Position numbers and translations under genes: made by a program. The notes beneath the pieces are model-generated. The model searched no databases, had not been told where the DNA came from, and saw only the letters and a program-made list of their open reading frames with translations. This document shows, one piece after another, positions 7,779 to 48,409 of a DNA stretch of 64,000 nt (positions are counted from its first letter, which is position 1; the number at the start of each line of letters is the position of its first letter). This DNA is from Arenicola marina (Eukaryota; Annelida; Polychaeta; Arenicolidae): assembly GCA_964019135.1 (NCBI GenBank), contig OZ025253.1:11103059-11167058 (forward strand), in the 5' to 3' direction.

Positions 7779-8000
7779 GACCCGGGCCTTGATATCAAGG
7801 CCCGGGTCGGCGTGTTTACAGCTTTTCCTGAAGACTCACACCGACCCGGGCCTTGATATCAAGGCCCGGGTCCGCGTGTTTACAGCTTTTCCTGAAGACT
7901 CACACCGACCCGGGCCTTGATATCAAGGCCCGGGTCGGCGTGTTTACAGCTTTTCCTGAAGACTCACGCCGACCCGGGCCTTGATATCAAGGCCCGGGTC
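7779..8000. repeat. Four 30-bp perfect palindromes at exact 64-bp spacing
   Basis: Perfect 30-base palindromes, with core GGCCTTGATATCAAGGCC extended by GACCCG and CGGGTC arms, lie at 7779-7808, 7843-7872, 7907-7936 and 7971-8000. They are separated by near-identical 34-base spacers containing GTTTACAGCTTTTCCTGAAG. Each palindrome is its own reverse complement over all 30 bases and can form a 15-bp-stem hairpin with no loop. The array contains no promoter or gene I recognise. It begins right after a CACACAGGAG and ends abruptly in AT-rich DNA. Confidence 0.95.
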
Positions 8001-9714: not shown

Positions 9715-10379
9715 AAGGAGGATGGGAATGATAATGACAAGGATGATTATCAGAAGGATGATGAGAAGAAGGATGGTGATAATGATCATGAGAAGAATGA
9801 TGAGGAGAAGATTGAGAAGGTGATAATAATGATGAGAAGAAAGATGAGCAGAAGATTGAGAAGGGTGATAATAATGATGAGAAGAAAGATGAGGAGAAGA
9901 TTGAGAAGGTGATAATAATGATGAGAAGAAAGATGAGCAGAAGATTGAGAAGGGTGATAATAATGATGAGAAGAAAGATGAGAAGAAGTATGAGAAGAAG
10001 GGTGAGAAGGACGATTGTCAGTGGGATAAGAATGACGATTGTCAGTGGGATAAGAATGACGATTGTCAGTGGGATAAGAATGACGATTGTCAGTGGGATA
10101 AGAATGACGATTGTCAGTGGGATAAGAATGACGATTGTCAGTGGGATAAGAATGACGATTGTCAGTGGGATAAGAATGACGATTGTCAGTGGGATAAGAA
10201 TGACGATTGTCAGTGGGATAAGAATGACGATTGTCAGTGGGATAAGAATGACGATTGTCAGTGGGATAAGAATGACGATTGTCAGTGGGATAAGAATGAC
10301 GACGAGCCTATGGGTGAGGAGGATAACCATATGAGAGAAGATGAAGTGCAGACCCACGGGGGTCACTCTGAGGGTGGGT
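9715..10379 (+). CDS. Predicted last exon: acidic/Lys repeats then 12 x DDCQWDKN
   Basis: The acceptor TTATTATCTTGAG leads into a Lys/Asp/Glu/Asn-rich frame. An internal 89-base unit occurs twice, and each copy has one GG where its partner sub-unit has GGG. Each therefore shifts the frame by one base, so the opening frame stops at 9912. Two frame shifts downstream, the acidic reading resumes and runs into twelve perfect copies of the octapeptide DDCQWDKN (10010-10297). The end is EDNHMREDEVQTHGGHSEGG, with a stop at 10377-10379. Either the gene is broken, or the two missing G residues are assembly errors. The protein would be intrinsically disordered, with a Cys and Trp every eight residues. 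The antisense frame rich in Ile, Leu and Pro is a shadow. Confidence 0.45.
10010..10297 (+). repeat. 12 identical 24-bp tandem repeats
   Basis: The unit GACGATTGTCAGTGGGATAA plus GAAT occurs exactly twelve times (288 bases) with no substitution seen. All units are multiples of three, so copy number can change without shifting frame. The perfect identity points to very recent expansion or homogenisation. Confidence 0.97.
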
Positions 10380-12859: not shown

Positions 12860-15800
12860 CTGTGATGGAAGTAAATCACAGCGGACACTAATTATTCGGT
12901 GACATGAAATGGGGAAAAAGGCACACGACAGTAACATATGGGGTCAAGACAGAAAATATTTAAACTTGACCGATCTGATACATTGCCTGATGAATGTTCT
13001 TATGGTAGTCTGTTCACATGTTTCGTTGCACAGAAGGAAAGAAACATTAAACAGCATATAGAGAAGGAAGAAACTGATTAAACAGGCACCTCTGTCTTAA
13101 AGAATCCATGAAGTTACTAAACAATTTTGCCTATTGATCGTCAGCGGTCAAGATAATCTAATAATTTCCATCTCTGTATCACAATTAATGCTATGAATAC
13201 TAAGGTAATAACGTTGTTAACAAGGTAGTATAATATCCATAAAATGGTAATTTGGCCTACAGGTAATGATAATAAGATCATTATGCCTAATAATAAGGGA
13301 GGGGTGGGGGCGCTGTAAAACAATAGCGACCGGTGGGGGTGGGGGGGGGCTGCTGAAATGACCGCGGGTGTCCACCAATGTTTCACAACCGGGGAGTGGG
13401 CACACTCTCTTAAACAACAACCCCTTTAGATCCGCCACTGGGTTGCATCTATGTCTCTTTCCAATGTAATCCGTTGGAAATCCTGACTTTTACAGTGTAT
13501 GCTCAAGTTCCCAATTAACTTATTAGACACCTGTATCGTACCGATAATATAATGGGATTTATTGTGAACCCTGGACTCACTGATGAAGGGCAGCGTCTCG
13601 CCGCTCTTGGGCGTGACCTCCGAGACCATGAGGAGGACGACGGTGTAGGCCAGGAAGACCGTGACGGAGAGAGAGACCTTCTCCCCGGCCTGACTCGGCA
13701 GCAGGAAGACCAGCGCCGACAACAGCGCAATCAGCACGACCGGCACGACCACGTGCATCAGGAAGTAGGTCGGCCGACGCCGGAGGGTCAGCTCGAAGAA
13801 AATCATCGGAAGCTTCATCGTCCTTCGGCCTCCGCCTGGTGCGAGGAGCTCGGCGCCTGACCTCGCCCCGAGAAGCCGCCACCCCTCGTTGGGTTCCATG
13901 TTGACCGTCTTGACGCCGCCTCCGACGCTGAAGCTGATGAGCTCCTCGCCGTGCATCCAGCTGACGAGGGAGACGTTACACCGCTGGGTGTCGAAGGGGA
14001 AGTACAAGAGGTTGACGGAGCACCCTGTCTGCCACTTGAAGCCCGGGCCCCAAAGGACCGTCCCGTTGGAGAAGATGCTGGCGCGGAACATGCTGGAGAG
14101 GGCGAGGTCGTTGCCCTGCTCCACGCTGCAAGGAGTCAACGCGTTTGTTTGAGGACATCTTTATGCACATGTAGACAATATCGGACCGAAAAGCACAGAA
14201 AGATGTGCGACATAAAATGCTCAAAATGCCATTTAAGATTAAGCCTCGATGCTAGGTCTGCTGGTTTGAGGCGTGATGGACAAGCGGTTGAGTTATGTAG
14301 GTTTTTGCGTTCTATGCGTTTTCGTCTCACCATATAAAACATGTATCACATATATATCATGAAAAGAAGGCTTCCGTTAACAGGGAATAGATAAACGCGT
14401 GGGTTTTCTGGAATGTCTCTGTGATCGAGATATGCGGCGCTGTTGCTACTTTATGGAGACTTTGCAGAACAATACTTTTAATAACGGAAACAAATCAATC
14501 GCTTGTCATAAGAATGACGGGAGTGCTTTTTTTATCTTTTAACAAGCAAAACACACAGGCTTGTTTATGCAGCCGTTACAGGAAACTCGTTTTTTACATA
14601 GGGGCAACACCACAGGTATGTAGTCCGTATCTGTCACAGTCTTGCCTGTTAAACAAGGCATATGCAGTCCATATCTGTCACAGACTTGCCTGTTAAACAT
14701 GGCGTATGTAGTCCATATCTGTCACAGCCTTGCCTGTTAAACAAGGCATATGCAGTCCATATCTGTCACAGTCTTGCCTGTTAAACATGGCGTATGTAGT
14801 CCATATATGTCACAGGCTTGCCTGTTAACATGGCGTATGCAGTCCATTTCTGTCACGGACTTGCCTGTTAACATGGCGTATACAGTCCATATCTGTCACA
14901 GTCTAGCCTGTTAAACATGGCGTATAAAGTCCATATCTGTCACAGTCTTGCCTGTTAAACATGGCGTATACAGTCCATATCTGTCACAGTCTAGCCTGGT
15001 AAACATGGCATATGCAGTCCATTTCTGTCACGGACTTGCCTGTTAACATGGCGGATGCAGTCCATATCTGTCACAGTCTAGCCTGGTAAACATGGCGTAT
15101 GCAGTCCATATCTGTCACAGTCTTGCCCGGTAAACATGGCGTATACAGTCCATATCTGTCACAGTCTAGCCTGTTAAACATGGCGTATACAGTCCATATC
15201 TGTCACAGTCTTGCCTGTTAAACATGGCGTATACAGTCCATATCTGTCACAGTCTTGCCTGTTAAACATGGCGTATGCAGTCCATATCTGTCCCAGTCTA
15301 GCCTGATAAACATGGCGTATGCAGTCCATTTCTGTCACCATCTAGCCTGGTAAACATGGCGTATGTAGTCCATATCTGTCACAGTCTTGCCTGTTAAACA
15401 TGGCGTATGTAGTCCATATGTGTCACAGTCTAGCCTGGTAAACATGGCGTATGTAGTCCATATCTGTCACATTCTTGCCTGTTAAACATGGCGTATGTAG
15501 TCCATATCTGTCACAGTCTAGCCTGGTAAACATGGCGTATGTAGTCCATATCTGTCACAGTCTAGCCTGTTAAACATGGCGTATACAGCCCATATGTGTC
15601 ACAGTCTTGCCTGTTAAACATGGCGTATACAGTCCATATCTGTCACAGTCTTGCCTGTTAAACATGGCGTATGCAGTCCATATTTGTCACAGTCTAGCCT
15701 GATAAACATGGCGTATGCAGTCCATTTCTGTCACAGTCTAGCCTGGTAAACATGGCGTATGTAGTCCATATCTGTCACAGTCTTGCCTGTTAAACATGGC

Positions 15801-18800
15801 GTATGTAGTCCATATCTGTCACAATCTAGCCTGGTAAACACGGCGTATGCAGTACATATCTGTCACAGACTTGCCTGTTAAACATGGCGTATGCAGTACA
15901 TATCTGTCATAGACTTGCCTGTTAAACATGGCGTATGCAGTCTATTTCTGTCACGGACTTGCCTGTTAACATGGCGTATGTAGTCCATATCTGTCACAGT
16001 CTTGCCTGTTAAACAAGGCATATGCAGTCCATATCTGTCACAGACTTGCCTGTTAAACATGGCGTATGTAGTCCATATATGTCACAGGCTTGCCTGGTAA
16101 CATGGTGTATGCAGTCCATTTCTGTCACGGACTTGCCTGTTAACATGGCGTATGCAGTCCATATCTGGCACAGTCTAGCCTGGTAAACATGGCGTATGCA
16201 GTCCATTTCTGTCACGGACTTGCCTGTTAACATGGCGTATGCAGTCCATATCTGTCACAGTCTAGCCTGGTAAACATGGCGTATGCAGTCCATATCTGTC
16301 ACAGTCTTGCCTGTTAAACATGGCGTATACAGTCCATATCTGTCACAGTCTAGCCTGTTAAACATGGCGTATACAGTCCATATCTGTCACAGTCTTGCCG
16401 GTTAAACATGGCGTATACAGTCCATATCTGTCACAGTCTTGCCTGTTAAACATGGCGTATGCAGTTCATATCTGTCCCAGTCTAGCCTGATAAACATGGC
16501 GTATGCAGTCCATTTCTGTCACAGTCTAGCCTGGTAAACATGGCGTATGTAGTCCATATCTGTCACAGTCTTGCCTGTTAAACATGGCGTATGTAGTCCA
16601 TATCTGTCACAGTCTAGCCTGGTAAACATGGTGTATGTAGTCCATATATGTCACAGTCTTGCCTGTTAAACATGGCGTATGTAGTCCATATCTGTCACAG
16701 TCTAGCCTGGTAAACATGGCGTATGTAGTCCATATCTGTCACAGTCTAGCCTGTTAAACATGGCGTATACAGTCCATATCTGTCACAGTCTTGCCTATTA
16801 AACATGGCGTATACAGTCCATATCTGTCACAGTCTTGCCTGGTAAACATGGCGTATGCAGTCCATTTCTGTCACGGACTTGCCTGTTAACATGGCGGATG
16901 CAGTCCATATCTGTCACAGTCTAGCCTGGTAAACATGGCGTATGCAGTCCATATCTGTTACAGTCTTGCCCGTTAAACATGGCGTATACAGTCCATATCT
17001 GTCACAGTCTAGCCTGTTAAACATGGCGTATACAGTCCATATCTGTCACAGTCTTGCCTGTTAAACATGGCGTATACAGTCCATATCTGTCACAGTCTTG
17101 CCTGTTAAACATGGCGTATGCAGTCCATATCTGTCCCAGTCTAGCCTGATAAACATGGCGTATGCAGTCCATTTCTGTCACAGTCTAGCCTGGTAAACAT
17201 GGCGTATGTAGTCCATATCTGTCACAGTCTTGCCTGTTAAACATGGCGTATGTAGTCCATATGTGTCACAGTCTAGCCTGGTAAACATGGCGTATGTAGT
17301 CCATATCTGTCACATTCTTGCCTGTTAAACATGGCGTATGTAGTCCATATCTGTCACAGTCTAGCCTGGTAAACATGGCGTATGTAGTCCATATCTGTCA
17401 CAGTCTAGCCTGTTAAACATGGCGTATACAGCCCATATCTGTCACAGTCTTGCCTGTTAAACATGGCGTATACAGTCCATATCTGTCACAGTCTTGCCTG
17501 TTAAACATGGCGTATGCAGTCCATATTTGTCACAGTCTAGCCTGATAAACATGGCGTATGCAGTCCATTTCTGTCACAGTCTAGCCTGGTAAACATGGCG
17601 TATGTAGTCCATATCTGTCACAGTCTTGCCTGTTAAACATGGCGTATGTAGTCCATATCTGTCCCAATCTAGCCTGGTAAACACGGCGTATGCAGTACAT
17701 ATCTGTCACAGACTTGCCTGTTAAACATGGCGTATGCAGTACATATCTGTCATAGACTTGCCTGTTAAACATGGCGTATGCAGTCTATTTCTGTCACGGA
17801 CTTGCCTGTTAACATGGCGTATGTAGTCCATATCTGTCACAGTCTTGCCTGTTAAACAAGGCATATGCAGTCCATATCTGTCACAGACTTGCCTGTTAAA
17901 CATGGCGTATGTAGTCCATATATGTCACAGGCTTGCCTGGTAACATGGTGTATGCAGTCCATTTCTGTCACGGACTTGCCTGTTAACATGGCGTATGCAG
18001 TCCATATCTGGCACAGTCTAGCCTGGTAAACATGGCGTATGCAGTCCATTTCTGTCACGGACTTGCCTGTTAACATGGCGTATGCAGTCCATATCTGTCA
18101 CAGTCTAGCCTGGTAAACATGGCGTATGCAGTCCATATCTGTCACAGTCTTGCCTGTTAAACATGGCGTATACAGTCCATATCTGTCACAGTCTAGCCTG
18201 TTAAACATGGCGTATACAGTCCATATCTGTCACAGTCTTGCCGGTTAAACATGGCGTATACAGTCCATATCTGTCACAGTCTTGCCTGTTAAACATGGCG
18301 TATGCAGTCCATATCTGTCCCAGTCTAGCCTGATAAACATGGCGTATGCAGTCCATTTCTGTCACAGTCTAGCCTGGTAAACATGGCGTATGTAGTCCAT
18401 ATCTGTCACAGTCTTGCCTGTTAAACATGGCGTATGTAGTCCATATCTGTCACAGTCTAGCCTGGTAAACATGGTGTATGTAGTCCATATCTGTCACAGT
18501 CTTGCCTGTTAAACATGGCGTATGTAGTCCATATCTGTCACAGTCTAGCCTGGTAAACATGGCGTATGTAGTCCATATCTGTCACAGTCTAGCCTGTTAA
18601 ACATGGCGTATACAGTCCATATCTGTCACAGTCTTGCCTGTTAAACATGGCGTATACAGTCCATATCTGTCACAGTCTTGCCTGTTAAACATGGCGTATG
18701 CAGTCTATATCTGTCACAGTCTAGCCTGATAAACATGGCGTATGCAGTCCATTTCTGTCACAGTCTAGCCTGGTAAACATGGCGTATGTAGTCCATATCT

Positions 18801-21800
18801 GTCACATTCTTGCCTGTTAAACATGGCGTATGTAGTCCATATCTGTCACAGTCTAGCCTGGTAAACATGGCGTATGTAGTCCATATCTGTCACAGTCTAG
18901 CCTGTTAAACATGGCGTATACAGCCCATATCTGTCACAGTCTTGCCTGTTAAACATGGCGTATACAGTCCATATCTGTCACAGTCTTGCCTGTTAAACAT
19001 GGCGTATGCAGTCCATATTTGTCACAGTCTAGCCTGATAAACATGGCGTATGCAGTCCATTTCTGTCACAGTCTAGCCTGGTAAACATGGCGTATGTAGT
19101 CCATATCTGTCACAGTCTTGCCTGTTAAACATGGCGTATGTAGTCCATATCTGTCCCAATCTAGCCTGGTAAACACGGCGTATGCAGTACATATCTGTCA
19201 CAGACTTGCCTGTTAAACATGGCGTATGCAGTACATATCTGTCATAGACTTGCCTGTTAAACATGGCGTATGCAGTCTATTTCTGTCACGGACTTGCCTG
19301 TTAACATGGCGTATGTAGTCCATATCTGTCACAGTCTTGCCTGTTAAACAAGGCATATGCAGTCCATATCTGTCACAGACTTGCCTGTTAAACATGGCGT
19401 ATGTAGTCCATATATGTCACAGGCTTGCCTGGTAACATGGTGTATGCAGTCCATTTCTGTCACGGACTTGCCTGTTAACATGGCGTATGCAGTCCATATC
19501 TGGCACAGTCTAGCCTGGTAAACATGGCGTATGCAGTCCATTTCTGTCACGGACTTGCCTGTTAACATGGCGTATGCAGTCCATATCTGTCACAGTCTAG
19601 CCTGGTAAACATGGCGTATGCAGTCCATATCTGTCACAGTCTTGCCTGTTAAACATGGCGTATACAGTCCATATCTGTCACAGTCTAGCCTGTTAAACAT
19701 GGCGTATACAGTCCATATCTGTCACAGTCTTGCCGGTTAAACATGGCGTATACAGTCCATATCTGTCACAGTCTTGCCTGTTAAACATGGCGTATGCAGT
19801 CCATATCTGTCCCAGTCTAGCCTGATAAACATGGCGTATGCAGTCCATTTCTGTCACAGTCTAGCCTGGTAAACATGGCGTATGTAGTCCATATCTGTCA
19901 CAGTCTTGCCTGTTAAACATGGCGTATGTAGTCCATATCTGTCACAGTCTAGCCTGGTAAACATGGTGTATGTAGTCCATATCTGTCACAGTCTTGCCTG
20001 TTAAACATGGCGTATGTAGTCCATATCTGTCACAGTCTAGCCTGGTAAACATGGCGTATGTAGTCCATATCTGTCACAGTCTAGCCTGTTAAACATGGCG
20101 TATACAGTCCATATCTGTCACAGTCTTGCCTGTTAAACATGGCGTATACAGTCCATATCTGTCACAGTCTTGCCTGTTAAACATGGCGTATGCAGTCTAT
20201 ATCTGTCACAGTCTAGCCTGATAAACATGGCGTATGCAGTCCATTTCTGTCACAGTCTAGCCTGGTAAACATGGCGTATGTAGTCCATATCTGTCACAGT
20301 CTTGCCTGTTAAACATGGCGTATGTAGTCCATATCTGTCACAATCTAGCCTGGTAAACACGGCGTATGCAGTACATATCTGTCACAGACTTGCCTGTTAA
20401 ACATGGCGTATGCAGTCTATTTCTGTCACGGACTTGCCTGTTAGCATGGCGTATGTAGTCCATATCTGTCACAGACTTGCCTGTTAAACATGGCGTAGGC
20501 AGTCTATTTCTGTCACGGACTTGCCTGTTAATCATGGCGTATGCAGTCCATATCTGTCACAGACTTGCCTGTTAAACATGGCGTATGTAGTCCATATCTG
20601 TCCCAGACTTGTCTGTTAAGCATGGCGTATGCAGTACATATCTGTCACAGACTTGCCTGTTAAACATGGCGTACGTAGTACACATCTGTCACGGACTTGC
20701 CTGTTAAACATGGGGTATGCAGTACATATCTATCACAGTCTTGCCTGTTAAACATGGCGTATACAGTCCATATCTGTCAGAGTCTGGCATGTTAAACATG
20801 GCGTATGCAGTCCATATCTGTCACAGTCTAGCCTGATAAACATGGCGTATGCAGTCCATATCTGTCACAGTCTTGCCTGTTAAACATGGCGTATGTAGTC
20901 TATATCTGTCACAGACTTGCCTGTTAAACATGGCGATCTCTGGAATCCAAATCTGTGAACTGGATACAACCAGTCGGTAGGTGCCGTTGTAATCACGAGG
21001 GTTCCAGCGAAGCAACTCGTCATTCCAGACCTGTAGCCATGGGAATTGCTTCCTGCTATCACATTCACATAGGCTAAGTTGATCATAAGTATCAAGCAGG
21101 AATAGCTTTGATTTGATAGTATTGATTACTTCCTGTGCAGGGACCAAGTGATCGATGGGGTCAGTGAAAGCAAATGTTTTCATATGAATTCCTGGTGACA
21201 GACTGGAGTATTCTTGCCTTTCAAGAAATTGTACTTATGTGATTAGTCATTATTTTTCAGGAAGTAATGGGAAAAGGATTAAGGTGTGTTTCTGTTATAA
21301 AACTTTTCCCACAGCAATTGAATGAAAGCTACACTTGGTCAAAGTCTAACAACCCTGTAATGAGGTTGTTCCAGACCTAAATTTTACTATAGAATGCGCC
21401 TAGACTTGTCTCAGCCCACACATAACTTAGGATTCTGGGCTGCATAGACACCGACCAATCTTCGTCAGTTACCAAGTATCCTAATCAAGCCACTCGCGGC
21501 GTGTAAGCAATATCAGTAGGCAACAATATACATTATTCCAAACTCACCAAGGCCATCCAACCAAACGTCGTCATGACTTGACTCTTCTCATTCTACAAAA
21601 AAAAAACAATATTTAACATATGAACTTCAAATTGACTGGCAATCATTGTCATTCTACTAGAGCCGGGTATAACCAATACGTTTGGCCCGTCATCGACAAA
21701 GCTATCTCAAATTCCGACCTTCGAATTTTAATTAGACCAACACATTAATTAATACACTTCACACAGGCGTTTATAAAATTACGAACATAGTTTGCTGGGG

Positions 21801-22588
21801 TAGGCCTATGGGACGATGCCAACTCTTTATGTCTGAAACGTACAAATATATATTGTCGAAAGTATTGATTACGTAGTGGACAAGGTAATCAAACCTTCCA
21901 ACACAAGTTTCACCATTGTCCTCTCCCATCTCACGCCCGTAAAACTACAGCCAAACAAGGCACTTTTATTAGTTACACAAGACGTGTTTGGCCTTCATAC
22001 AACCAGTATCTGATTACATCATTGATGTCTATTATTATATCAAGACTATAACGTTCATCGGGCGAACGTTGCTGTATTAGCAGCTTCACCTATGTGGTGA
22101 AGGGGTATGTAGATCAAGTAACGTAACAAGTCTTACCAAATTTTCCAATTTTCTCAAGGAGAATGTGGCCTTGACTTTTATCTGACTATTCGCCTTCCGT
22201 ACAGGACGAACATTCCGGTTGTAATTCACCATTAAATCCTGAAATAGGCGGTTTTCTGGAGACATAAAGGACCCTGAAATGGAATTGAAAACCACGTTAA
22301 TTCAGAAGTTGACGTTGAGATACATTAAAATAATATTTTACAGATATTTGCCAGTAGCCCATGTGGACATGTGTATGTCCTAAACATTTCATCATCCGTT
22401 TTCATGGTATATACATATAAATTCCTGGAATGCCGAATGATACAAAAGATAACTGTTGTAATTAGTTTCACAAGTTTCGATATGTAGATTAACGGACTGA
22501 TACCTGTCGCGGTGACGGATTCGATCCTCTCACCAACGTAAACCAGAGTGATTATCACCATAACCATCCACGTCATGACGTCACGCAT
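12345..22588 (-). CDS. Nicotinic acetylcholine receptor-type subunit, complete six-exon gene
   Basis: Exons in order of transcription are 22504-22588, 22137-22273, 21548-21592, 20921-21030, 13581-14125 and 12345-12859. They total 1437 bases, or 478 codons plus stop, with all phases compatible. The protein has a signal peptide, an extracellular ligand-binding domain with Cys-loop CSVNLLYFPFDTQRC, four membrane helices and a short cytoplasmic loop of about 115 residues ending in an amphipathic helix. M2 reads EKVSLSVTVFLAYTVVLLMV, with Glu at -1', Leu at 9', Val at 13' and Glu at 20', the pattern of cation-selective channels. Loop A (WIPEIAMFN) and loop B Trp are kept. The loop C vicinal Cys pair of alpha subunits is absent, so this is a non-alpha-type subunit. 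Exons 3 (45 bp) and 4 (110 bp) match the sizes and positions known for vertebrate nAChR genes. It would form a pentameric plasma-membrane channel; partner and ligand are unknown. The intron between exons 4 and 5 is filled by a minisatellite. Confidence 0.93.
12860..13580 (-). other. Receptor intron 5
   Basis: A 721-base GT-AG intron with donor GTGAGT on the minus strand. It contains poly-G/poly-C rich runs near 13320-13350 and no other feature I recognise. Confidence 0.85.
13581..14125 (-). CDS. Receptor exon 5: Cys-loop, loop C region, M1, M2
   Basis: The exon opens after the acceptor ACTCCTTGCAG with a split Ser codon and reads VEQGNDLALSSMF, then the Cys-loop, SWMHGEELISFS (loop B), the loop C region without a Cys-Cys pair, M1 (FLMHVVVPVVLIALLSALVF) and M2. 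It ends LPFI plus one base at donor GTGAGT. N-glycosylation sequons NGT and NVS lie in the extracellular part. At 545 bases it fuses what are several exons in vertebrate homologues. GC content is clearly higher than the surrounding DNA. Confidence 0.94.
14126..20920 (-). other. Receptor intron 4, GC-AG, 6.8 kb, mostly minisatellite
   Basis: Exon 4 ends ...AACAG and exon 5 starts C-GTG, giving a split AGC Ser codon. The bases right after exon 4 are GCAAGT, a perfect GC-type donor. The only alternative GT (at AAGTCT) would end in phase 0 and break the frame. The first 490 bases at the exon 5 side (14126-14616) are unique sequence. The rest is the 44-bp array. Confidence 0.85.
14617..20935. repeat. 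44-bp minisatellite (~140 units) repeating an exon end and 5' splice site
   Basis: On the minus strand each unit contains CGCCATGTTTAACAGGCAAG or the variant CGCCATGTTTACCAGGCTAG, followed by CTGTGACAGATATGGACTGC-type sequence. Units are 44 bases, with occasional 43-base units lacking one T in the TTTAAC run. The array overlaps the last 15 coding bases of receptor exon 4 (20921-20935), so every unit copies the exon's final codons and the adjacent GC donor. Large blocks recur: 17581-17772 is identical to 19073-19264 (offset 1492), and 15878-16060 recurs at 17721 (offset 1843) and 19213. The array is not CRISPR: there are no unique spacers. Short open frames inside it are by-products of a unit that seldom contains stops. 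Confidence 0.97.
20915..20925 (-). promoter_or_regulatory. GC-type 5' splice site of receptor exon 4
   Basis: Read on the minus strand this is AACAG|GCAAGT. It matches the extended consensus of GC donors (AG before, AAGT after), has the right phase (2) for exon 5, and sits at the intron position conserved in nAChR genes after the loop A 'YNS'-type motif (here FNS). Confidence 0.82.
20921..21030 (-). CDS. Receptor exon 4 (110 bp): loop D/A region
   Basis: After the acceptor CATGGCTACAG the exon reads VWNDELLRWNPRDYNG through SSSQIWIPEIAMFN and ends within the next Ser codon. The length of 110 bases and 37 codons aligns without gaps to the equivalent vertebrate nAChR exon. The last 15 bases belong to the first unit of the minisatellite. 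Confidence 0.93.
21031..21547 (-). other. Receptor intron 3
   Basis: A 517-base GT-AG intron (donor GTGAGT, acceptor TACAG). No other feature was seen. Confidence 0.85.
21548..21592 (-). CDS. Receptor exon 3 (45 bp)
   Basis: Fifteen codons, NEKSQVMTTFGWMAL, lie between a poly-pyrimidine acceptor ending TTGTAG and donor GTGAGT, phase 0 at both ends. They match the conserved 'DEKNQVLTTNIWL' segment of the family, and the 45-base size is the same as in vertebrate nAChR genes. The exon is too short to find by open-frame length. Confidence 0.92.
21593..22136 (-). other. Receptor intron 2
   Basis: A 544-base GT-AG intron (donor GTAAGA). Nothing else was recognised. Confidence 0.85.
22137..22273 (-). 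CDS. Receptor exon 2: N-terminal helix of ligand-binding domain
   Basis: Between the acceptor TTCCATTTCAG and donor GTAAGA the frame reads SPENRLFQDLMVNYNRNVRP and then VRKANSQIKVKATFSLRKL. This matches the family N-terminus with its 'RLxxDLxxxYNxxxRPV' signature. It is 137 bases long, with phase 1 entry and phase 0 exit. Confidence 0.93.
22504..22588 (-). CDS. Receptor exon 1: signal peptide
   Basis: The exon reads MRDVMTWMVMVIITLVYVGE then RIESVTAT and ends in phase 1 at donor GTATCA, joining in frame to exon 2. The hydrophobic core WMVMVIITLVYV is a typical signal peptide. Translation could start at Met1, Met5 or Met8. An acceptor-like TATATTTACAG at about 22616-22626 on the minus strand hints at a 5' UTR intron just upstream. 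Confidence 0.82.
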
Positions 22589-28055: not shown

Positions 28056-30269
28056 CTATGTGATGCGATGTTGGGCACGTGGAACGGAAAAAGATCCTGA
28101 AGGAGCTAGCGAGCAAGAAGGCCGGTGTTTGTTGTGATGGTTATGTTTGTTGTCTTACTTATGTATGCTGATAAGCGTTCTGGTATGGTGAAATAAAGGG
28201 ATCAAGAAGAACAATAGTAATTGATCACGGTTAGTCACGGTTCTTGAAATTTGCCCCCGGCCTATACTGCTTGCTAGGATGCAGTTATGATTCATATCTT
28301 CTTTAATCGCCAGGGGTTAGTGATCAATAAGTACCTAGAGGGGTATCATGTATTGCTTGGCTATATGGAGAGGGGTCGATGTAATAAAGTGACGTTATCA
28401 CCCGGCCATCGGGGTCGTCGTGGACTCTCGGACATCAATCCGTTCTTTCAACAGGCGTGTCTCTAGTTGTTAACCCATAGATCTGGAAGGGCGGCCCAAC
28501 GCGGGTAAAACTTCCTGATGACCTCTCGTTCGCGGTATTTTTCTGATCCAACTGATTAAGGTAAGTCACAAACAAAGGTTCAGCAATGTTCCTAAGAAAC
28601 AGGGAAATCAAAATAATGTTACTGAAGTTCTCAATTTAACCACACAGGTACAGACTGAATGTCACCGCCACAGACAATGTGACAGGCGATGTCTGTAACG
28701 AAGCGAATGTCTTCTTTGCTGCCAGACCTAGGTTGTGTCATTTCTGTCTATGTGGGTTTTTTTGCCCCTAGCGTGACAGCACAGGGTCCACAACATAATT
28801 CCGGCCAAACAAAAGCAATATATGTGTGTGTATAGGGCGTGGGGCGGGAGGGGAGGGGGGTGCGTGTCCTGAGCCGTTATTCTATTGTGACAGCCAGCAG
28901 GATGATGTGTAGGTCACTCCATGAGTGACAGTGCGGTCGCCTTATCTTGATCTTATTTCCACCGGGACGTGACTCGACCCCACTTTGTTTAGTCAGCAAA
29001 CACTGCATGTCGGTGTAGCATGCGCTGTGCCTCTCAGGCCGAGAGAACAACTGACCCAAACCCCGTAGACAAACACGTGATATCGCGTGAACATAGAGAG
29101 TCACATGCCATCGGTGTCGTTAATTAACTGGTCTTGAATCATGTGACACGGGACACGGTACATCATGTCACACAGCACAAACATATAATGGCACGTTATG
29201 ATACAACACATGGTAACAGCAAGATGCAGGAAAAACACAAACATATATCAACATATGATAACAGCCCGGGCAATCTGGGGATAGATATATACCCAAAGCA
29301 AATGGCAATAGTAATCAAACCTGCTTTTCCCGATTCCTTGGGCGTCTATGGATGTGGCATTTCCAAAATCCAACAACATTTTTTGAGTGGAACTTATTTT
29401 TGAAAGGGGTGGGTTAGTTTACCCTCTTAACCAGACAATAAGCAACGCATTTGTAAACAAGCATAAATAGACACACATAAATTGTTTTCTTCTTGACAGA
29501 AACAACATAAATCACATGTTTTTAAACCCCACTTATATAGCGTTTCGTTCGTTGATATTATGCGGTGTAGTAAGGTACGTAACCTGGAAATCTCGTAATT
29601 TAACATATCTCGTAACCTTAAATAAATACCAAAAGGAAGACAAATATTCCGCTTTTGTTAACTGTAGATCTCTCACCCATGCTCCAAAAGGCGTTGCTGC
29701 AATTCTTTGGATAAGTTTTGCATACACATATTTACAAGCGTGTTGCTTCTTCATATATGTCACATATACCGTTTTACAAACATCCTTTAGGTTCGTTTGT
29801 CTCAACAAACTTTTCCTTGTTCCTCTAAAAGATGTCTAATATATATGATTGCCGCCTTCAATAAATTAGTATAACAAATAACCTTGTTGTCAACGTCTGT
29901 ATGCGAGTGGAACCATATGACCTTTTGCATAACTTGTGCTATATCATCAATTGGATGGAAGTGAAATTCACACCGGGCTCCTTTGATTTCTCGAATAAAA
30001 TCGTTTCTGATTCATTCATATAAAGGTGTCCTTATTAAGGCTTTATCAATTAGGTTGCATTGCCAGAATAATGAACCCAGCGTTCCAAAATGACCGTGTA
30101 CAAAAACTCAAACACACAAGAATCATTGTTAATAATAAGCTGCACCCATGCGACGTTGTACTGTGAGTTTTGTACATGAATTCACGCTGTCCATATGACA
30201 CAATTAACCGTGGTATTTTATGTCCTGATGTAATTCTCTGACGGTCGTAACTTTTGACTGTATTTGTAG
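28056..30269. other. Non-coding stretch upstream of the BTB genes
   Basis: No gene is recognised. The acceptor-like TGTATTTGTAG ending at 30269 suggests that a 5' UTR exon of the BTB gene lies somewhere in this interval, but I could not place it. Confidence 0.45.
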
Positions 30270-30289
30270 ATTACTCCCACATCAATAAG

Positions 30290-31155
30290 ATGGATGCCGC
30301 AGCCCTACGCCGAGAGCATGTCGGGGGGATAACAGCGGCCAACAGGAAGCTCCACGATACAGGAGCGCTGTCTGACGTCACTGTGACTGTGGGCGATGTG
30401 GCCTTCCCCTGCCACAAGGCTCTCCTGGCGGCTTGGAGCGGCTACTTCCGGTCTATGTTCAGCAGCGACTTTACTGAGAAACAAGCCAGTCACGTGACTT
30501 TGCCTCAGTGGCATATGGTGTCACATGAGGCATTTTATATGCTTCACAAGTGGATGTACCTTGGAGAACTGAGCCTGTCACTGGAGACAGTCGTAGTCAT
30601 TCTGCCAACTGCCTTGTACCTGCAGATGGACAAAACGGTGGACATGTTGACCGACTATATGCGGTACCAGTACTCACGCGGTGTTCCTGTGAGTCGTATG
30701 TTCGATCACCTCAGTCTGGCTCACACTTGTGGAGTGCCGGCCCTGAGAGGTATTGCTCTGGAAGGGATGGCCAGGAACTTTGACGAGGCGGCGGAAATGG
30801 AAGATTTCCTTGCGCTGAAGGCAGACGATTTGCTTGGGCTGATCCGTATGGATGAGCTGAAGGCTCGCAATGAAGACATCGTCTTCAGTGCGGCTTTTGC
30901 CTGGCTTCACCACAGCGACGATCGTCTAACTTATTTACTTGATATCGTAAAGTCACTGAGAGTTGGTCTGGTCAATGTCCGGACAATCCGGCAAGTCCTG
31001 AATATCCAGATCCTGTCTATCAACAGAGAGTGTTGTGACATTCTTCTGGATGTTCTGGTGGCGCGGGAGTCCGACAAAAGGAGTCTAGAGCAACTGAAGG
31101 AAGACCATTCCGAGGCGTTCATTGACAGGACAAACTCGCCGCTTTCTAAAGCAGG
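30290..31155 (+). CDS. BTB-BACK protein exon (kelch-like family)
   Basis: The ATG at 30290 (context ATAAGATGG) starts MDAAALRREHVGGITAANRK. A BTB/POZ domain follows (LSDVTVTVGDVAFPCHKALL ... SGYFRSMF ... LHKWMYLGELSL), about residues 27-135. A BACK domain then covers about 140-250 (FDHLSLAHTCGVPALRGIAL ... LKARNEDIVFSAAFAWLHHS). BTB-BACK proteins usually dimerise and bring substrates to cullin-3 ubiquitin ligases. The exon ends at a strong donor (GCAGG|GTAAGA, phase 2), but an in-frame TAA overlaps the donor (31157-31159), so a stand-alone 289-residue product is also possible. No kelch repeats follow directly. The neighbouring exon at 31554 is a paralogue, so this is half of a tandem duplication. 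Confidence 0.85.
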
Positions 31156-31553
31156 GTAAGACTTTCGGTAGTGATGGGAAATATTTTCAAATATTTATTC
31201 TGTCCAATTCTGCTTCTCCGTGACGCAATAGCTTCATACGTTGTATAATTGTATCAAAGGCTTTACTATGTTAACGTGCACCGTAAGCATTCTGAGAGAT
31301 CAGTAAAGTATTTGCGTTGTCTCTGTATTGCTGGTCTTTACGCTCATTGGAGTAACACCCACTACAGGGACGCACAATCACCGCAGTGACGCTCGCCCAC
31401 AGTTTACTCACGCACTGATTCTTTAAGCTTCCCCAACAAGACCATGTTGATTGGAGAACCATCGGTTCGAACGAGTAGATTCCACTCCGTACCCTTAGTG
31501 TATAAAAGTATTACCGTGTGATATCATGACCTTTTTTCATCCGCTTGAGGAAG
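31156..31553 (+). other. Intron or intergenic spacer between BTB-BACK exons
   Basis: About 400 bases without coding signal. If the two BTB exons are one gene it is an intron. If not, it holds the promoter of the second gene. Confidence 0.5.
31501..31508 (+). promoter_or_regulatory. Possible TATA box
   Basis: TATAAAAG stands about 25-30 bases upstream of an ATGACC (31527). It would fit a separate promoter for the second BTB gene, but the ATG frame differs from the BTB frame by one base, which weakens the idea. Confidence 0.3.
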
Positions 31554-32664
31554 AAGCGTACCCCAGCCTGATATACATCAGTTCTATAGCGACATCTGGC
31601 GGGACGCCTACGTCACCCTTGGGGGCACGTGCCAAAACTTTACTGACGTCACGGTGACGGTTGACGGGGAAGCCTTCCACTGTCACAAGGCCGTCCTGTG
31701 CGGCTGGAGTGGGTATTTTGAGAGGCGTTTTCTGCATGGTGAAGGCAGCGCGAGACTTGACGGGTCGCCCACCGACGAGACGCAGGATATCCCAAGGTCA
31801 TACGAGGTTGACCTGCCGCCAGGCTCTCGCGGTGAGGCGCCGCCTGGTGTAGGTGGACAAGGTGCGGTGAGTGCCACGAGTACAGAGACCGGGACCGGGC
31901 CGAGTTCCCGTGCCGAGGAAGACGGCGTCGATTGGGGTTCAAGAGACTCGCTTCCTATCCTTGATAAACTTCTGTATCCGAATCCGGCGCAGGCGCACGA
32001 CCAACGCCAGGCTTTTTCAGGTATGAAGCATGTATCACTGGCGGGTGGTCACATAACAAAGACTGCCTTCAGCCATGTATTGGATTGGATTTACATAGGT
32101 GAATGCATCGTGACGGCTAAGAATCTTTGTGACGTCATAATGTGCGCGCGCTGCCTACAGATGGACGTTGTTGTGGCGTTGTTGCAAAATTATTTCAATA
32201 GACATCTGAGCGCTTCAGTCGGGAAAGAGATAATGACCGTCTTGCACACAGCCAAGAATTATAACATTAAGGATGTGTATGAAACCTGCCTTAATCAAAT
32301 CGTCCGCCATTTTGAAGAACTCAGCGACAGTGAGGAGTTTAATCGGCTGTTGGATGTTGATACATTACTCCGACTATTGCAAGATGATCGTCTAAAAGTC
32401 AGAGATGAAAATACGGTGTTTAAAGTTGTATTGTCATGGTTACGCTATTCTGCGAGTAACCTCACGCACACTGGTGACGTCATCAAGTCATGTCGCCTCG
32501 GGCTGGTGGAGACAAATTTCCTAAATGATGGTCTTGACGTTGTTTTCTTATCCCGAGACTTGGATGCCTTCAACTGTTTAAGCCAGGTGATAAAGAAAGA
32601 ACCCGGGAGCTTGGATTCCCTTCGGAAGGACCGACCGGTCATGTTTAGAAGGCGAAAGACTCGG
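31554..32664 (+). CDS. BTB-BACK exon of a BTB-BACK-propeller gene
   Basis: The open frame enters upstream of any Met (HQFYSDIWRDAYVTLGG), so an acceptor is needed. A pyrimidine tract (CCTTTTTTCATCC) is followed by a GAAGAAG tandem acceptor; exon starts at 31554 or 31557 are both phase 2, matching the donor of the BTB exon at 31155. The BTB domain is split by an insert of about 90 low-complexity residues after SGYFERRF and resumes at HVSLAGGHITKTAFSHVLDW. BACK follows (LHTAKNYNIKDVYETCLNQI ... LKVRDENTVFKVVLSWLRY). The exon ends KTR at a perfect donor CGG|GTAAGT, phase 0, joining the propeller exon at 32961. The 5' end is the uncertain part. Confidence 0.8.
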
Positions 32665-32960
32665 GTAAGTACTGCCTCTTGGTACCATGCATTGTATGGG
32701 GGCAAGACAACCCCCCCCCCCCCCCAGCCAGTCCCCCCAGACAATTCCACCCCGGACAACGCCCCCCCCCACCCCTCCGACATTCCCCCACCCCCGGACA
32801 ATTCCCCATAGGACAAGTCCCATCCGGACAACTCCCCCTAATTTTGTGTTAAAATTAAGTAACTTACAGTAGCCAGTATGCCCTGGTAATTTTACTTGGT
32901 TGTGTAGGTGTATGTGGGAAATATGTTGCTTAATGCGATGGATACATTATTGTGATTCAG
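32665..32960 (+). other. C-rich intron
   Basis: A 296-base GT-AG intron (GTAAGT ... GATTCAG). About 32709-32835 is a run of C-tracts and repeats of CCGGACAATTCCCC type. Reading through it gives an artefactual Pro-rich tail. Confidence 0.85.
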
Positions 32961-33767
32961 ATCAAGGCATTCTACGACCGTCTGAGGGAGACTTCTCCAG
33001 TGGGAGACAGAGCGGGTGCGGGACGTCTGCGGGATCCCCGTGCGGCCTGTGTCTTCGGCGACCTCGTCCTGGTGGCTGACTGTGGAAGTAACCGACTGGT
33101 GGCCTTCAGTCGCCCGGATTCTGCCGCCAAACACTCCTACGTGTCTCACGTCGACATTAACGACCCATACCATTGTGTGAGTGACAAGGACACATACACG
33201 GTCTACGTGTGCAGCTGGTGTGGGCAAAAAATTACGATAGTGAAGTGGGTTCAACCAGACGATCTTTGTGTGGTCGGAGAGCTGACGGTCGGGGGTAAGT
33301 TGTCTGGACCCACTCACATGGCGCTGGACTCACGTGACAAGAAACACGTGTATGTGGCCTGTCGGGATGGCATACACAAAGTGTCGCTTACAACAGACAC
33401 CGTTGTCATCACTCTAAGCCGCCCATCTGGAGTTACGTGTCGCCCACAGAGAGTGGCGATCATTGACGCTACTCTAATGGTCAACTACGAGGGAGACAAA
33501 ACCCTCGTGCTCTACACCGAGGGCGACACCTCGGGTCACGTGATTAGACCTCTAGGACTTAAGCAACCCGGGGGTCTCGGCGAGGACGGGGTGAACTTCT
33601 TGGTTGGGGACGAGGTCGACAGATGTATCTATGTGATTTCACCCAGCGGTGTGACCCTGACGACCGTGAACACCGGGAACATTGCGCCCCTTCACATCAC
33701 TGTGGACGACGACACCGTGTACTTCACCTCGTACCCCAGTAATGATCGCGTCCAGGCTCTGCGTTAA
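32961..33767 (+). CDS. NHL-like beta-propeller exon, C-terminal part of the BTB-BACK gene
   Basis: Following the acceptor TTGTGATTCAG the frame reads IKAFYDRLRETSPVGD and then repeats of about 40-50 residues with propeller-blade character. Examples are LVLVADCGSNRLVAFS, THMALDSRDKKHVYVACRDG, VNFLVGDEVDRCIYVISPSG and ITVDDDTVYFTSYPSNDRV. The final residues are QALR and TAA. The pattern (a Gly/Pro turn, a hydrophobic strand, D/N-x-x-N-x-R/V) is closest to NHL/SMP-30-type blades rather than classical kelch, whose double Gly is missing. It would be the substrate-binding half of the adaptor. Confidence 0.82.
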   Translation: MKAFYDRLRETSPVGDRAGAGRLRDPRAACVFGDLVLVADCGSNRLVAFSRPDSAAKHSYVSHVDINDPYHCVSDKDTYTVYVCSWCGQKITIVKWVQPDDLCVVGELTVGGKLSGPTHMALDSRDKKHVYVACRDGIHKVSLTTDTVVITLSRPSGVTCRPQRVAIIDATLMVNYEGDKTLVLYTEGDTSGHVIRPLGLKQPGGLGEDGVNFLVGDEVDRCIYVISPSGVTLTTVNTGNIAPLHITVDDDTVYFTSYPSNDRVQALR

Positions 33768-34573: not shown

Positions 34574-34607
34574 GAAATCTTTTATGTAATTTTTTACTAA
34601 CCTTTTC

Positions 34608-34725
34608 AGGGTTATCTTTGATGCAATCAAAGGAGAACGTTGGTTTCTGCAGCTTTATTTGTGCCAGACTGTTTTCCGCTAGGTCTTTCGCCAATGTTCT
34701 GACATTGGCTGTTAACTACAAGTTC
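34608..34725 (-). other. Exon-like open fragment conserved in both duplicates
   Basis: On the minus strand the frame NVRTLAKDLAENSLAQIKLQ then KPTFSFDCIKDNPEK ends at a donor-like AAG|GTTAGT. Copy B (about 46920-47040) keeps the frame with two replacements. An upstream TAG limits it to about 35-40 codons. It has no recognised domain; it may be an exon relic of a gene or transposase. Confidence 0.3.
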
Positions 34726-34894
34726 TGTAGAGTAATATTAACACAATCGATAGAATAATGATAGAATGATGGCCAAACATGCAAAGCAATACATACAAAA
34801 GCATATGGTACATAATTTTAAATTAGAACACATGCCTCATGCAGGGTGGCACCATATAAAACGCTGGGTTAAATTGTTATAATGTTAACTACAT

Positions 34895-34980
34895 ACAGGC
34901 CTTACAACAGCTGGGCCACTTCAACACTCTAGCTCACACAGGCCTTACAACAACTGGGCCACTTCAACACTCTAGCTCAC
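34895..34980. repeat. 43-bp tandem repeat, two units (copy A)
   Basis: Two units of a 43-base sequence starting ACAGGCCTTACAACAGCTGG. The same locus in copy B has three units. Confidence 0.95.
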
Positions 34981-37900
34981 ACAACCCTGGTAAAACTAAG
35001 CCTAATCAGCCATGGGACAATCACAAACAAGGTGTTTATTGGCAGTCACATGCAGTGAAAATTGAAACTGTACCCAATGATGATTTAGTTACTTACTATA
35101 CTGTTTGAACTTGGGGGTTATATACACTACATAGGGGCATAGGTGAGTGATTGTATACAATCAAACTTCATGTTTGCATATCAAGGGAGTACCGGTAAAT
35201 CTTTGTCATGGACGATAACTGATGATCAGTATCAAGAATTTAATAGAGGCCATAATAATAAAATGAAGTACTTCATTTCTCTTGTGAATTAAGCAGCGGG
35301 TATATACACTAGATAATTATCAGCAGATCTCGGCCATTGGCAACTTAAATGTTTTAATCATTTAATAGTGTTATTTTGCCTGCTCTAGTAGATTCTGATT
35401 AGCGATTTCTTTAATACAAAATCTTCATTATATGGATAAAGCCCAACGAGAAATCAATAAATAAGAATATTTGTTCATGAATGTTATAAAAAACAAATAA
35501 TCCATAACCTAGCTGTTCCCCTTCACAAATTATAAATTGACTTAATGCATTATTAGATAAATATGAATTATTATTTCACCATCACATAAATATTAACTAA
35601 GACTATAGATCTAGACTACAAATTGCATGAACATTAAGATAGTTAAAATTAACATTTGTAACAGTGGAATTTCATCAATTTATAAGATCATAAAATTACT
35701 GTAATTTCTTCTTTTCTAAAATTTTGAGTAAGCTTACCCAAAGAATATATCTATTTTTTACACTGTAAAGTGTTTTTCTTTACAGTCCTTTTCGTCCTCA
35801 ACTCGTACAGGAAAAAAATTAATTAGAAAATTTCGTTGTCCGAAGAGTTTCCGTTGCGACTATAATGGATAATTCTACGGAAACTGCATAATTTAAAAAG
35901 TGAAATTTTGAAAATTAAGGTTTGTTCAAATCACGTGATATGTTTGATGTGCAACCTCTAGATATCCACGTTTTTGAAAACAAACAGAGCCGAGCTTACA
36001 CGTTGATAGGAACTTCCCAATTAAACAGGAAAGGAATTATGTCACCCATATTTTGTCAACTCTGTTACCGGACAATATTATAAGTCCCCGTGCCTAAAAC
36101 CTTTTAATAAATACTAGTTCATTCATAATTCGACTTACATTGTATGGGGTCAATATGCCTAACACTTCACTATGAAATTAACTGCTGAAAACCGATGAAG
36201 TTCGATATTAATATGAGTCAAATAATTGTTATGCCCAAACATCACAGTTCTGCGCCAGAGTTGTTACTGCTAATGTTCAGAAAGATCGTTGTATTATTAC
36301 AAATAAAACCTTAACTTTGCCTACCGATAAGAGGGATATCATTAAGAGTATAAATGCCACGAACAGTCTATCACTTCGAATAAGAAATATTTATATTCGT
36401 GTTGTAAGAGAGCTGACATCTGGTAACAGGGCTAACGTCTGGTAACAGATCTGTCATGCGTGTGGTCAATTGCTGAGAATGCCCAACAGAGGTGCCTCTT
36501 AGCCATCCACCCAATGAATTTATAAATGATGTGAACTGTCAACCATTTAGAATTGGAAATGTGTATGGTAACAGAGCTGACATCTGGTAACTGGACACGC
36601 ATACGCTAAAAAGGCCTAAAGGAGATGGCTAACATTCATATTTGCGCGGGTTTTAAGTCGGTGACGGTAATTTTTAGTATCCTTTCAACCTTCGCCCGAG
36701 CAAATTAAGAAAGGCTAGGCACCCTTAGAGATAATATGTAGTCCGTTTTTTTCTGATGGATAAGTTAGCCGTTTAGAAGGTGCACAAGACAATGAGTAAA
36801 AGACGGGTACATGCGTAACTATATCTCTTCGCTGCAATTGTTTCAGGGTAATTATTTTTATGTCGTACCAAATCATCGCGCAAAAGAGGCTTCCTACGCT
36901 AGAAACGTAAGCATGGCATAAACATGGTTTAAAATCAGCCTTGTATGTATCTTAACACAGTTACCCATCATTATACGCAGTCAGTCATAAATAAGGCAAC
37001 TCAGCCTCCAGACCTCTTTATCCAATAGCTGCCTTCTATAAAGACGTCTCCTCCTGATTGCCTACATAAATTATCATTTGAAAGTCGTTTGATGAAACTT
37101 TTGTACTTTAATAAGCGAACGATCATTGTACCACATTGACGCCTATTTGGCCTATCTGCAACTGAGTTTGACAAAACAATAAGTCATAGATAACGGCTTA
37201 AAAACGCTTGGTTCTTATTCTTTATTTCCAAAGGATATTTCAATTAATGGAGAACGATAACAAAATCGGGTAGATGGCCTAATTGCTTTCCCTAAGTACA
37301 TCATTTAGGGTTCAACTCCCACTCACACTCTCTATCAGGTTTCATTGACAGTTTTTACTTTGCCCATTTTATTCCTTTTAGTCCAGTTCAGTTGTTTTCT
37401 CTATAGGTTTGGCTGCAGACACTGCCATTTTGTAAATTAAATAAGTTTTGAACTCTTGCAATGCTAATTTTTTTTTTAAGGTAAGCCACCCATAATAGCA
37501 AGGTAAAAGAACTCTGTATTTGTGATTATTTTATGAAAGTATACCCAATTACACACCTTCTGGTGATTTTTTAGGATATTTTACCATCCCGTTAAAAAAC
37601 TATTCTCCATTTTCCAAGTATACCCCCATATCACAAAATGACCAAAACTTGACACCTACCACGAATATGTAATTTTGCTACAATTCAGCTCAATATTAGG
37701 TCATTATCACCAGTAATAGCTCTTTGGAAAACTTAAACTTCAAACTTAGTGCAATACAGGAATGATATTCCACAATGTAAATAGTAGCCACAAAAAATAA
37801 CAGAATGGCAATAATAAAGTGCAGTTATGCAAAAACAGGACCGTTTTTACCAAAATTCGAAATCACCACCTTCACAAAATTGGCTATAATTTCATCAAAA

Positions 37901-38502
37901 ACGAAAATCTTGACACCAAACCACGTTTAAAAACTTCTAAAAACATAGTTCTTGTAATAAAAATAAAGAAAAATATAGGTAGCCGTGCATATTTCCCGAG
38001 AAACACGTCCTAAAACTTGAAAATGTTATTTCAGAAATATTTTTTGGAGCAGCTTATTTCACACCAATTATCAGTAATTTACGCCTTGTGCTGACATTTA
38101 AAAAAATCTGGTTATATATAATGGTCTCCGATAAATTTATGATCTACACGAATGTTTCTGAACTGTTTACACGTTTTCTCCATGTTTTTTTTCTTGAATA
38201 TTCGGAATTTATCACGAAGAGCCATTCTCGGGGAAATACCCTGTGAATGACGTAACGAGTTAGCGCCGATGTTTGTCGATGTTTACCGAGGTCTTCTCTA
38301 AATCGTCGAAGCTCATTATACGATGTTCTATTTATTTTACCTATGTCACCACTTCTTTTGCTGTGTTTTATTCGTGCTTTGTTTCATTAAGACTGCTTAA
38401 AATATCAGGGCTACAGCCCGGCCGATGTTTGCCGATGTTTACCGAGGTGTCCGCAAGTGTGACCGCAAGTGTCCAACCAAGTTTCTTACGAATGGGAGGA
38501 GG
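34981..38502. other. Non-coding part of copy A
   Basis: Mostly AT-rich. 35131-35458 and about 37475-38455 are missing from copy B. GGTAACAG-GCTGAC-type motifs cluster near 36410-36600. A 34-base direct repeat containing CGATGTTTACCGAGGT lies near 38262 and 38420. No gene is recognised. Confidence 0.5.
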
Positions 38503-39006
38503 CAGTGGCGTGCGATCAATTCTTGAAGGGGGGGGGGGGGCACAAAAATAGAAAATAATGCATGTAAAAGCCTGAGACGTAGGTGAGCATAGAATTTGAA
38601 AGAGGGGGCTGGATAAGGTATATCTTAGGGTCTGAAATAGAAGTGCACGTGCCCTCTGTGCCCCCCACACCTGGCAGGGGGCACATAACTGGAAAACGTG
38701 GGGGGAGGGGCACAGATATATCCTAGGGTCTGAAAGTGGGGGCACGTGCCCCATGGGAGGGCACCTCAGATGGCCTTGATTTTGCATAGAAAGACAGCAT
38801 CCTTCCCAATAAGGGTCCTTGAGAAAAATTACTTTGTAACAGTCCTGGAGGGGGAGGGGGGGGGGGTAAATCCCCTCTTTCTTGGATCGTCCACTTAGAG
38901 ATAGATTTCGTTGGAAGACCAGACTTTTACAGTGCATTGTTTAGTTCCTCAATGTCATGGGGTGAGGTGGTCGCGGCCTAACCCCGGCCCCCTAGATCCG
39001 CCCCTG
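38503..39006. mobile_element. Probable MITE with CAGGGGCG-type ends (copy A)
   Basis: Its left end reads CAGTGGCG and its right end CGCCCCTG; the copy B version has CAGGGGCG at the left, so the ends are inverted repeats. The interior is rich in GGGCACGTGCCC-type palindromes and G runs. No transposase is present. No clear target duplication was found. Confidence 0.5.
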
Positions 39007-39904
39007 CTCGGTGCTATGAGTTTATTAGGCGGTTTGATAAGGGTCCCTCATACCCCTGCTACTAGGAATAAGGTGGCTATCGTAGGGCCTAGCTGTAATG
39101 TCAGAAACAGCTATTACATGATCTAGCTGTCAGCTCTGTGACCCATGCTGTCAGCCCTGTTACCATGTCAGTGGTAGCAGGGCTGACGGTAACAGAGCTG
39201 CCATTTTCGTCAGTTAATGCCGGTCTGCATCGTGTCAGCCGTGATTATCGATCGCATAAAATGTTCTCTTTAATGCTACTTAAGCTATCAATAGGTCCCA
39301 ACTTTTGTTCAGGGGAAATATTGGACCATCTATAAAATGTCTGCGTAACAGTGCTGACCACATATGCTTTACCCTGTTCATAAATGACCTTCGATGTCGT
39401 AAAGAAAACGTTTCTCTCTCAGCGAGGGCCCACGTGTCTGCAAATTTGCTACCAACAGGGACGGAGCACTTCCTTCTCAGCCCACATAATTTTCTAGGTA
39501 ACAGGGCTGACAGAAAATCATGGGACAGGCATACAACGTGACATATTTCTGGAACTGTGGACATAGCTGACATTAGACCACATTTCATACATGCCCTAAT
39601 ATCTATGTAATAACTTCAAATAGAAATCGTAGTGAAATAACGATATTTCAGTCCATTGAGACACCAAGGAATGACAAGACAGGGCTTCTGGGACAGGTCA
39701 TTATTGGCGCTATATGACTTTCATTCCGAATAATATATAAACCGGTGATGGCTAGAATAAAACACATGCTGTTGATGACCTTGATTTAATTGACCAACCA
39801 AATGAAACTATCAGGCCCAAATACGATTTTTTATGATGATTTCCTCGGCAGGACTCTAAGTATTCACTTACCGTAGAATGACCCTTATAGGTCTTTAAAA
39901 AAGG

Positions 39905-40390
39905 TCAAATTCATAAAGGCTGTAGAGTGACGTTTCGGCCCATATTTTCCGCGAGTTGGCCGCGATCGCTCTGAAAATCACTGACGCGAGAAAGCAACAC
40001 TGTGCAATCAAACTTACTTTTGTACAGCAATGTTATCCCTTTTTATGATACAAACAATGATTTTTCATGCTAACACTCCATTGGCAGTAGACGCAACCAT
40101 ACTAAAGCACACGCCATAAAATGATGTAGTTGTCATGGCGCCGAACGGTGCTATGAAAAATACATGTTTTATATTTAAACCAGCCACGAGGACACCATGG
40201 CAACTATAGAGCCTTTCATTGTCTGTGCTTTAGTATATTTGCAGCAATGTGTCTGCTGCCAATGGAGTGCCAGCATGAAGAAATATGGTTTGTATATCCA
40301 GCAGTACAAACGATAGTGATTTCCAAAATGATCGCGGCAACTTCGCGGAAAATATGGGCCGAAACGTCACGCTATGGCATTTGTGGTTGG
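39905..40390. mobile_element. Long foldback element (copy A)
   Basis: The left arm has GACGTTTCGGCCCATATTTT and CGCGATCGCTCTGAAAATCA. The right arm has the reverse complements near 40310-40375. Pairing continues inward (CACTCCATTGGCAGTAGAC near 40075 against TCTGCTGCCAATGGAGTGCC near 40251), leaving a centre of only about 100 bases. The same arm sequence recurs in smaller elements at 41211, 44240, 48147 and 57312. Confidence 0.8.
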
Positions 40391-40468
40391 TATCCTCCGT
40401 CTGCGAAAGGCTGGATTTGCAGCTTTGTTCTTGTTTAAGTAATACGATTTGCGTCGCGGCATTTGCGC

Positions 40469-48350: not shown

Positions 48351-48409
48351 TTCCGGTGCACCAAGAGTCAACTCAAGCTTATGTTCCAGAACATTGTAAA
48401 TTTATAGCC

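Follow-up and report, generated by a model that had tools for sequence, protein, structure and literature searches.

Intron 4 of a nicotinic-receptor-like gene predicted in Arenicola marina consists mostly of a minisatellite (~6.3 kb of its 6,795 bases), in which the end of exon 4, its 5' splice site and the beginning of the intron are repeated in tandem. The array comprises 144 units on the minus strand of the window, by which we mean the whole stretch of 64,000 nucleotides that was analysed. It is very probably a minisatellite of the 'mirage' type, seeded at the border between exon 4 and intron 4, grown by unequal exchange, and carried as a tolerated passenger by a gene that uses the outermost donor.

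The array and the gene that holds it

Tandem Repeats Finder (TRF) called the array at 14616-20935 with a period of 44, 144.0 copies and 90% matches, and our own segmentation, running from 20934 down to 14614, returned the same number of units, of which 126 are 44 bp long, 17 are 43 bp and one is 46 bp. The preliminary description of this DNA, which had placed about 140 units at 14617..20935, is borne out by both. The unit is made of GCCATGTTTAACAG, which comes from the exon and is preceded by a C, followed by 30 bp from the start of the intron. When up to three mismatches are allowed, the window contains 127 occurrences of the 19-base border word GCCATGTTTAACAGGCAAG, whereas shuffles predict 0.02; all of them lie inside the array, and no second copy was found elsewhere in the window.

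Table 1. Features of the predicted receptor gene and of the array (positions in the window)
Feature	Positions	Strand	Length (bp)	Description
Receptor exon 1	22504..22588	-	85	start codon; signal-peptide-like by eye; GT donor; phase 1
Receptor exon 2	22137..22273	-	137	gene model
Receptor exon 3	21548..21592	-	45	gene model
Receptor exon 4	20921..21030	-	110	last 15 bases (20935-20921) inside first array unit
Exon 4 donor	20915..20923	-		CAG/GCAAGT
Intron 4	14126..20920	-	6,795	GC-AG, phase 2; mostly array
Minisatellite	14614..20935	-		144 units; TRF and segmentation
34-unit block, first copy	18784..20319	-		units 14-48; 1 difference over 35 units vs units 48-82
34-unit block, second copy	17292..18827	-		units 48-82
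Third related block	15361..16852	-		units 93-126; 6 differences over 34 units vs units 51-84
Intron 4, 3' part	14126..14613	-		not unit-like; acceptor CCTTGCAG
Receptor exon 5	13581..14125	-	545	ligand-binding domain (its end), then first membrane segments
Receptor exon 6, up to stop codon	12345..12859	-	515	gene model

The gene is a prediction from DNA alone, modelled on its reading frame together with splice words and motifs of receptors. The model has six exons on the minus strand, encoding 478 residues plus a stop codon; four of its introns would be of the GT-AG type and intron 4 would be a GC-AG intron in phase 2. Two of the exons, of 45 and 110 bp, have sizes that are classic for receptor genes. 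The ligand-binding domain was recognised by Pfam both in the frame of exon 4 and in exon 5, where a membrane domain was recognised as well, and the membrane-domain match of exon 6 lies under the Pfam cut-off (25.3 vs 28.1 bits). A first, partial model of 442 residues started exon 4 too early, at 21191, so that by the final model intron 3 accounts for its first 53 residues; the protein of this first model was the query of the search against solved chains and of one homologue search. The former returned 275 distinct sequences with E no higher than 0.001. A neuronal alpha-subunit chimera was the best match (E 8.2e-47), and all four of the displayed alignments cross the junction of exons 4 and 5, through which distant homologues align too. 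The organisms named among the homologues were sea slug, mussel, brittle star, nematode and two flatworms in the first protein search, which scored the 7,994 candidates with the most words in common, and crinoid and starfish in the second; no lancelet was named in either of the two. Three introns are described as common to all vertebrate genes of the receptor family (PMC6354393).

Exon 4 ends in 15 bases that are identical to the unit, and the match falls to 5 of 30 over the next 30 bases, while in 20,000 shuffles of the exon the largest suffix match was 10 bases. The longest words shared with the unit are of 6 bases in the rest of the tested exon 4 stretch and of 7 bases in the intron tail, and neither flank of the array is unit-like. 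It had been stated beforehand that the array starts inside exon 4, taking in its last 15 bases and the donor, and the exact suffix bears this out, with the exon number and the border agreeing with our own model. Because exon 4 is homologous receptor coding sequence, the sequence would have passed from the exon to the array and not from the array to the exon. This homology, the end of the match after 15 bases and the flanks that are not unit-like support the earlier claim of seeding at the exon-intron border, and the border of exon 4 with intron 4 appears to be both the source of the array and the place of its expansion. The seed would be one short tandem duplication across the border, comprising 15 exon bases and ~30 intron bases with one shared C at the join, and the simplest history suggested by the anatomy of the array would be this duplication followed by growth.

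A second reading of the exact junction would make intron 4 a GT-AG intron, with its donor CAA/GTCTGT four bases into the unit and its acceptor GAGCAG/GGC ten bases into exon 5. Each unit would then contain 19 exon bases, the donor GT would be kept in 31 of 144 units, and the spliced junction would read AACAGGCAA-GGCAAC, as compared with AACAG-CGTGG for the GC-AG intron. We consider this shifted junction unlikely. It is in frame too, giving a protein two residues shorter, and it would remove a gap of two residues against the alpha-4 chain and against six of the eight homologues that cover the site (the other two show a one-residue gap). Its donor, however, is weak, with a U1 duplex of -1.4 vs -7.9 kcal/mol and a matrix score of 2.7 vs 6.1, and its acceptor is preceded, at a distance of 10 bases, by that of the GC-AG junction, which comes first and has just slightly better pyrimidines (10 vs 9 of 17). 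Moreover, exon 4 would measure 114 bp instead of 110 bp (the classic size), and the protein would have R after N, where alpha-7 and P0003 have N-S and six of the eight homologues N-N. On this comparison of sequences we prefer the GC-AG junction; the border is spanned by the unit under either one.

Growth of the array and other repeats in the window

The interior of the array is homogenised and its edges are exempt. Counted from the exon side, units that occur only once number 10 among the first 12 and 7 among the last 10, whereas the 122 units between them include 8. A block of 34 units is present in two near-identical copies, and a third block is related to them (Table 1). Slippage and unequal exchange had both been named in the preliminary description as ways in which the array could have grown, and the block duplications favour the latter; the array would have been enlarged to 144 units by unequal exchange and block duplication, its edge units being mostly unique still.

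A recurrence of 35 consecutive units with one difference could also arise during assembly from a shorter array, in which case part of the length, chiefly the near-identical 34-unit blocks, would be artefactual, and an aberrant mirage assembly in a draft genome is on record (PMC3087553). We regard this as unlikely, however, since there are six differences in the third block copy and few of the edge units occur more than once, and since duplication by unequal exchange is expected to produce an identical picture.

Across the window, TRF rows were merged by hand into 26 arrays and compared by eye with the genes recognised by partial gene finding (the receptor, BTB/BACK and two sulfotransferases), and the receptor array alone was seen to span an exon border. 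A possible exception is the array at 32766-32808, which sits where a BTB/BACK reading frame ends, in a region (30251-33767, plus strand) where BTB/BACK-domain coding sequences are followed by a frame whose weak match to the NHL repeat stays below the Pfam cut-off. The intervals 34574-43744 and 46895-59704 form a tandem segmental duplication, with 91-96% identity in pieces and a Sulfotransfer_2 (PF03567) gene in both copies; a 43-bp minisatellite inside it differs between the two, with 2.1 and 3.2 copies, respectively. A 62-bp minisatellite of ~9 copies (62425-63001) lies away from any recognised exon. At 10005-10302 a 24-bp unit is repeated 12.4 times almost without change (99% matches), adjoining a degenerate purine-rich array, and at 7779-8000 a 64-bp unit is repeated 3.5 times, its consensus containing the perfect 30-bp palindrome GACCCGGGCCTTGATATCAAGGCCCGGGTC. 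A direct repeat of ~1 kb with 88.6% identity (25-1076 and 1334-2345) possibly represents the remains of a mobile element. Rfam and tRNA scans found nothing.

Donor sites in the units and their predicted use

At donor position +2 all 144 units have a C; the dinucleotide is GC in 143 units, AC in one and GT in none. The donor cores are GCAAG (85 units), GCTAG (57), GCCAG (1) and ACAAG (1), and the full CAG/GCAAGT is found in 30 of 144 units, that is, in the authentic site and in 29 inner ones. These counts agree with the earlier observation that the intron repeats its own 5' splice site more than a hundred times, sometimes in full, with a GCAAG core or its GCTAG variant. The strength of the sites was estimated from U1 pairing and from a matrix of donor frequencies. 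The authentic donor reaches -7.9 kcal/mol, which makes it joint best with 29 others and exceeded by no unit; typed GT references gave -13.7 and -12.7 for the consensus and -5.7 for a third one in a poorer context.

The idea that inner donors are weakened as a protection of the correct choice was not supported, since strong donors are commoner close to the exon: CAG/GCAAGT occurs in 7 of units 1-12 vs 22 of the 131 deeper units (p 0.003, although units are not independent). Masking of inner donors by RNA structure was unsupported as well, the authentic donor ranking 106th of 144 from the most open in predicted accessibility (calculated on a transcript piece starting at 21191). Folding of the region around the exon 4 border (20800-20975) gave -51 kcal/mol vs a shuffle mean of -42, with z -2.40 and 3 of 200 shuffles as good. 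Donor strength by itself cannot explain a correct choice of donor and, because neither strength nor accessibility favours the authentic site, choice of the outermost donor, if made, would have to come from exon definition or from position. We expect that the spliceosome most likely takes the outermost donor, since exon 4 is defined by it.

With splicing to the exon 5 acceptor of the gene model, the full 478 residues are obtained only from the outermost donor. The first stop falls at codon 244 with inner donor 1, at codon 205 with inner donor 2 and at codon 159 with the other 141, in each case before the last exon. The preliminary description had calculated that a donor n units downstream adds 44n bases and is in frame at every third unit; because the units are not all of 44 bp, the in-frame donors number 48 among the 143 inner ones, and none of the 48 leaves the frame open. 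Any inner donor joined to the exon 5 acceptor would thus give a transcript with a premature stop (143/143, as with the partial model). Alternative donor choice, put forward earlier, is ruled out as a source of protein diversity for this haplotype and this acceptor, with no inner donor of the 143 leaving an open frame.

Transcripts of this kind might still be made. If some of them used inner donors, gained a stop and were degraded, the length of the array would set receptor output, and both the 29 inner donors that carry the authentic CAG/GCAAGT, seven of them within units 1-12, and the stop before the last exon from each inner donor are compatible with it. Published mirages, however, are described as not disturbing regular splicing (PMC3087553, PMC3902484), and we see no sign here of selection keeping the array, so that such copy-number-tuned unproductive splicing is very unlikely. 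Slightly less probable again is a splicing dial in which the 29 authentic-like inner donors compete for U1, each yielding a transcript with a premature stop, and in which changes in repeat number, heritable or somatic, adjust how much of a single receptor subunit different individuals or cells produce. Array units may act as decoys for U1 binding, as suggested earlier, with no unit pairing better than -7.9 kcal/mol. Recursive splicing through AG/GC ratchet points in the units, also suggested earlier, is hardly credible, for although an AG abuts a donor-like GC site in most units, the pyrimidine tracts in the one unit checked are weak (9 of 17 upstream bases for AACAG and 6 of 17 for CTGTGACAG, a poor acceptor in spite of having been called acceptor-like), so that the array offers no strong 3' splice site in that unit and a GT in donor position in 0 of 144.

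Instead of being a new splicing device, the array is probably a passenger that the gene tolerates, in keeping with the undisturbed splicing described for published mirages, and neutrality, one of the possibilities listed in the preliminary description, would be its best reading. It nevertheless constitutes a natural test of spliceosome choice, with 144 tandem donors of which 29 have the same nine core bases as the outermost one, 7 of these lying in the first 12 inner units.

Comparison with known systems

The preliminary description knew of no system of this form, and in this it was wrong, since the mirages of amphioxus and the minisatellite of human IFI6 are of this form. Mirages have been described as minisatellites lying across exon-intron boundaries in Adh3 and in the globins BflGb6 and BflGb9 (PMC3087553); PGBD5 has been added as a mirage in a paper that also cites troponin C (PMC3902484). 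In the account of the globin mirage its core is homogenised and its edges are exempt (PMC3087553). The array described here is alike in that its tandem units straddle the exon-intron boundary placed by the gene model, that copies carry a splice signal (GC in 143/144) and that the inside is homogenised with the edges exempt, and its unit length falls within the 10-72 bp range given for the Adh3 mirage (PMC3087553). Its size is different, with 144 units and 6.3 kb, whereas two globin haplotypes have 6 units and 3 units (PMC3087553). The GC donor is a further difference, as is the host, the described mirages being those of lancelet.

The repeat unit of human IFI6 (6-16, G1P3) is short, at 12 bp. 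Like ours, it repeats an exon end, and two of its downstream units are described as acting as donors, giving three mRNA species (PMC4526556). Inner units are used there, whereas none of the 143 inner donors of the present array keeps the frame open to yield an intact protein variant.

Internal tandem repeats at exon-intron boundaries have been described in human segmental duplications, with 30-bp units and 4 repeats on average (PMC2812944). They share with our array a change of repeat number at the exon border, where intron structure is altered (PMC2812944); neither exon change nor intron gain is seen in our array. In the Rogers model, introns are gained by tandem duplication of AG/GT sites (cited in PMC3087553; PMC4974935). 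The raw event would be the same here, a tandem duplication bearing a splice site, but an existing intron has been lengthened instead of a new one being created. The array belongs to a type of repeat known from lancelets, of which it is a very long example, and, going by the copy numbers given in these sources (that of Adh3 aside), it extends the mirage class to a GC-AG intron and to a longer array within the existing category.
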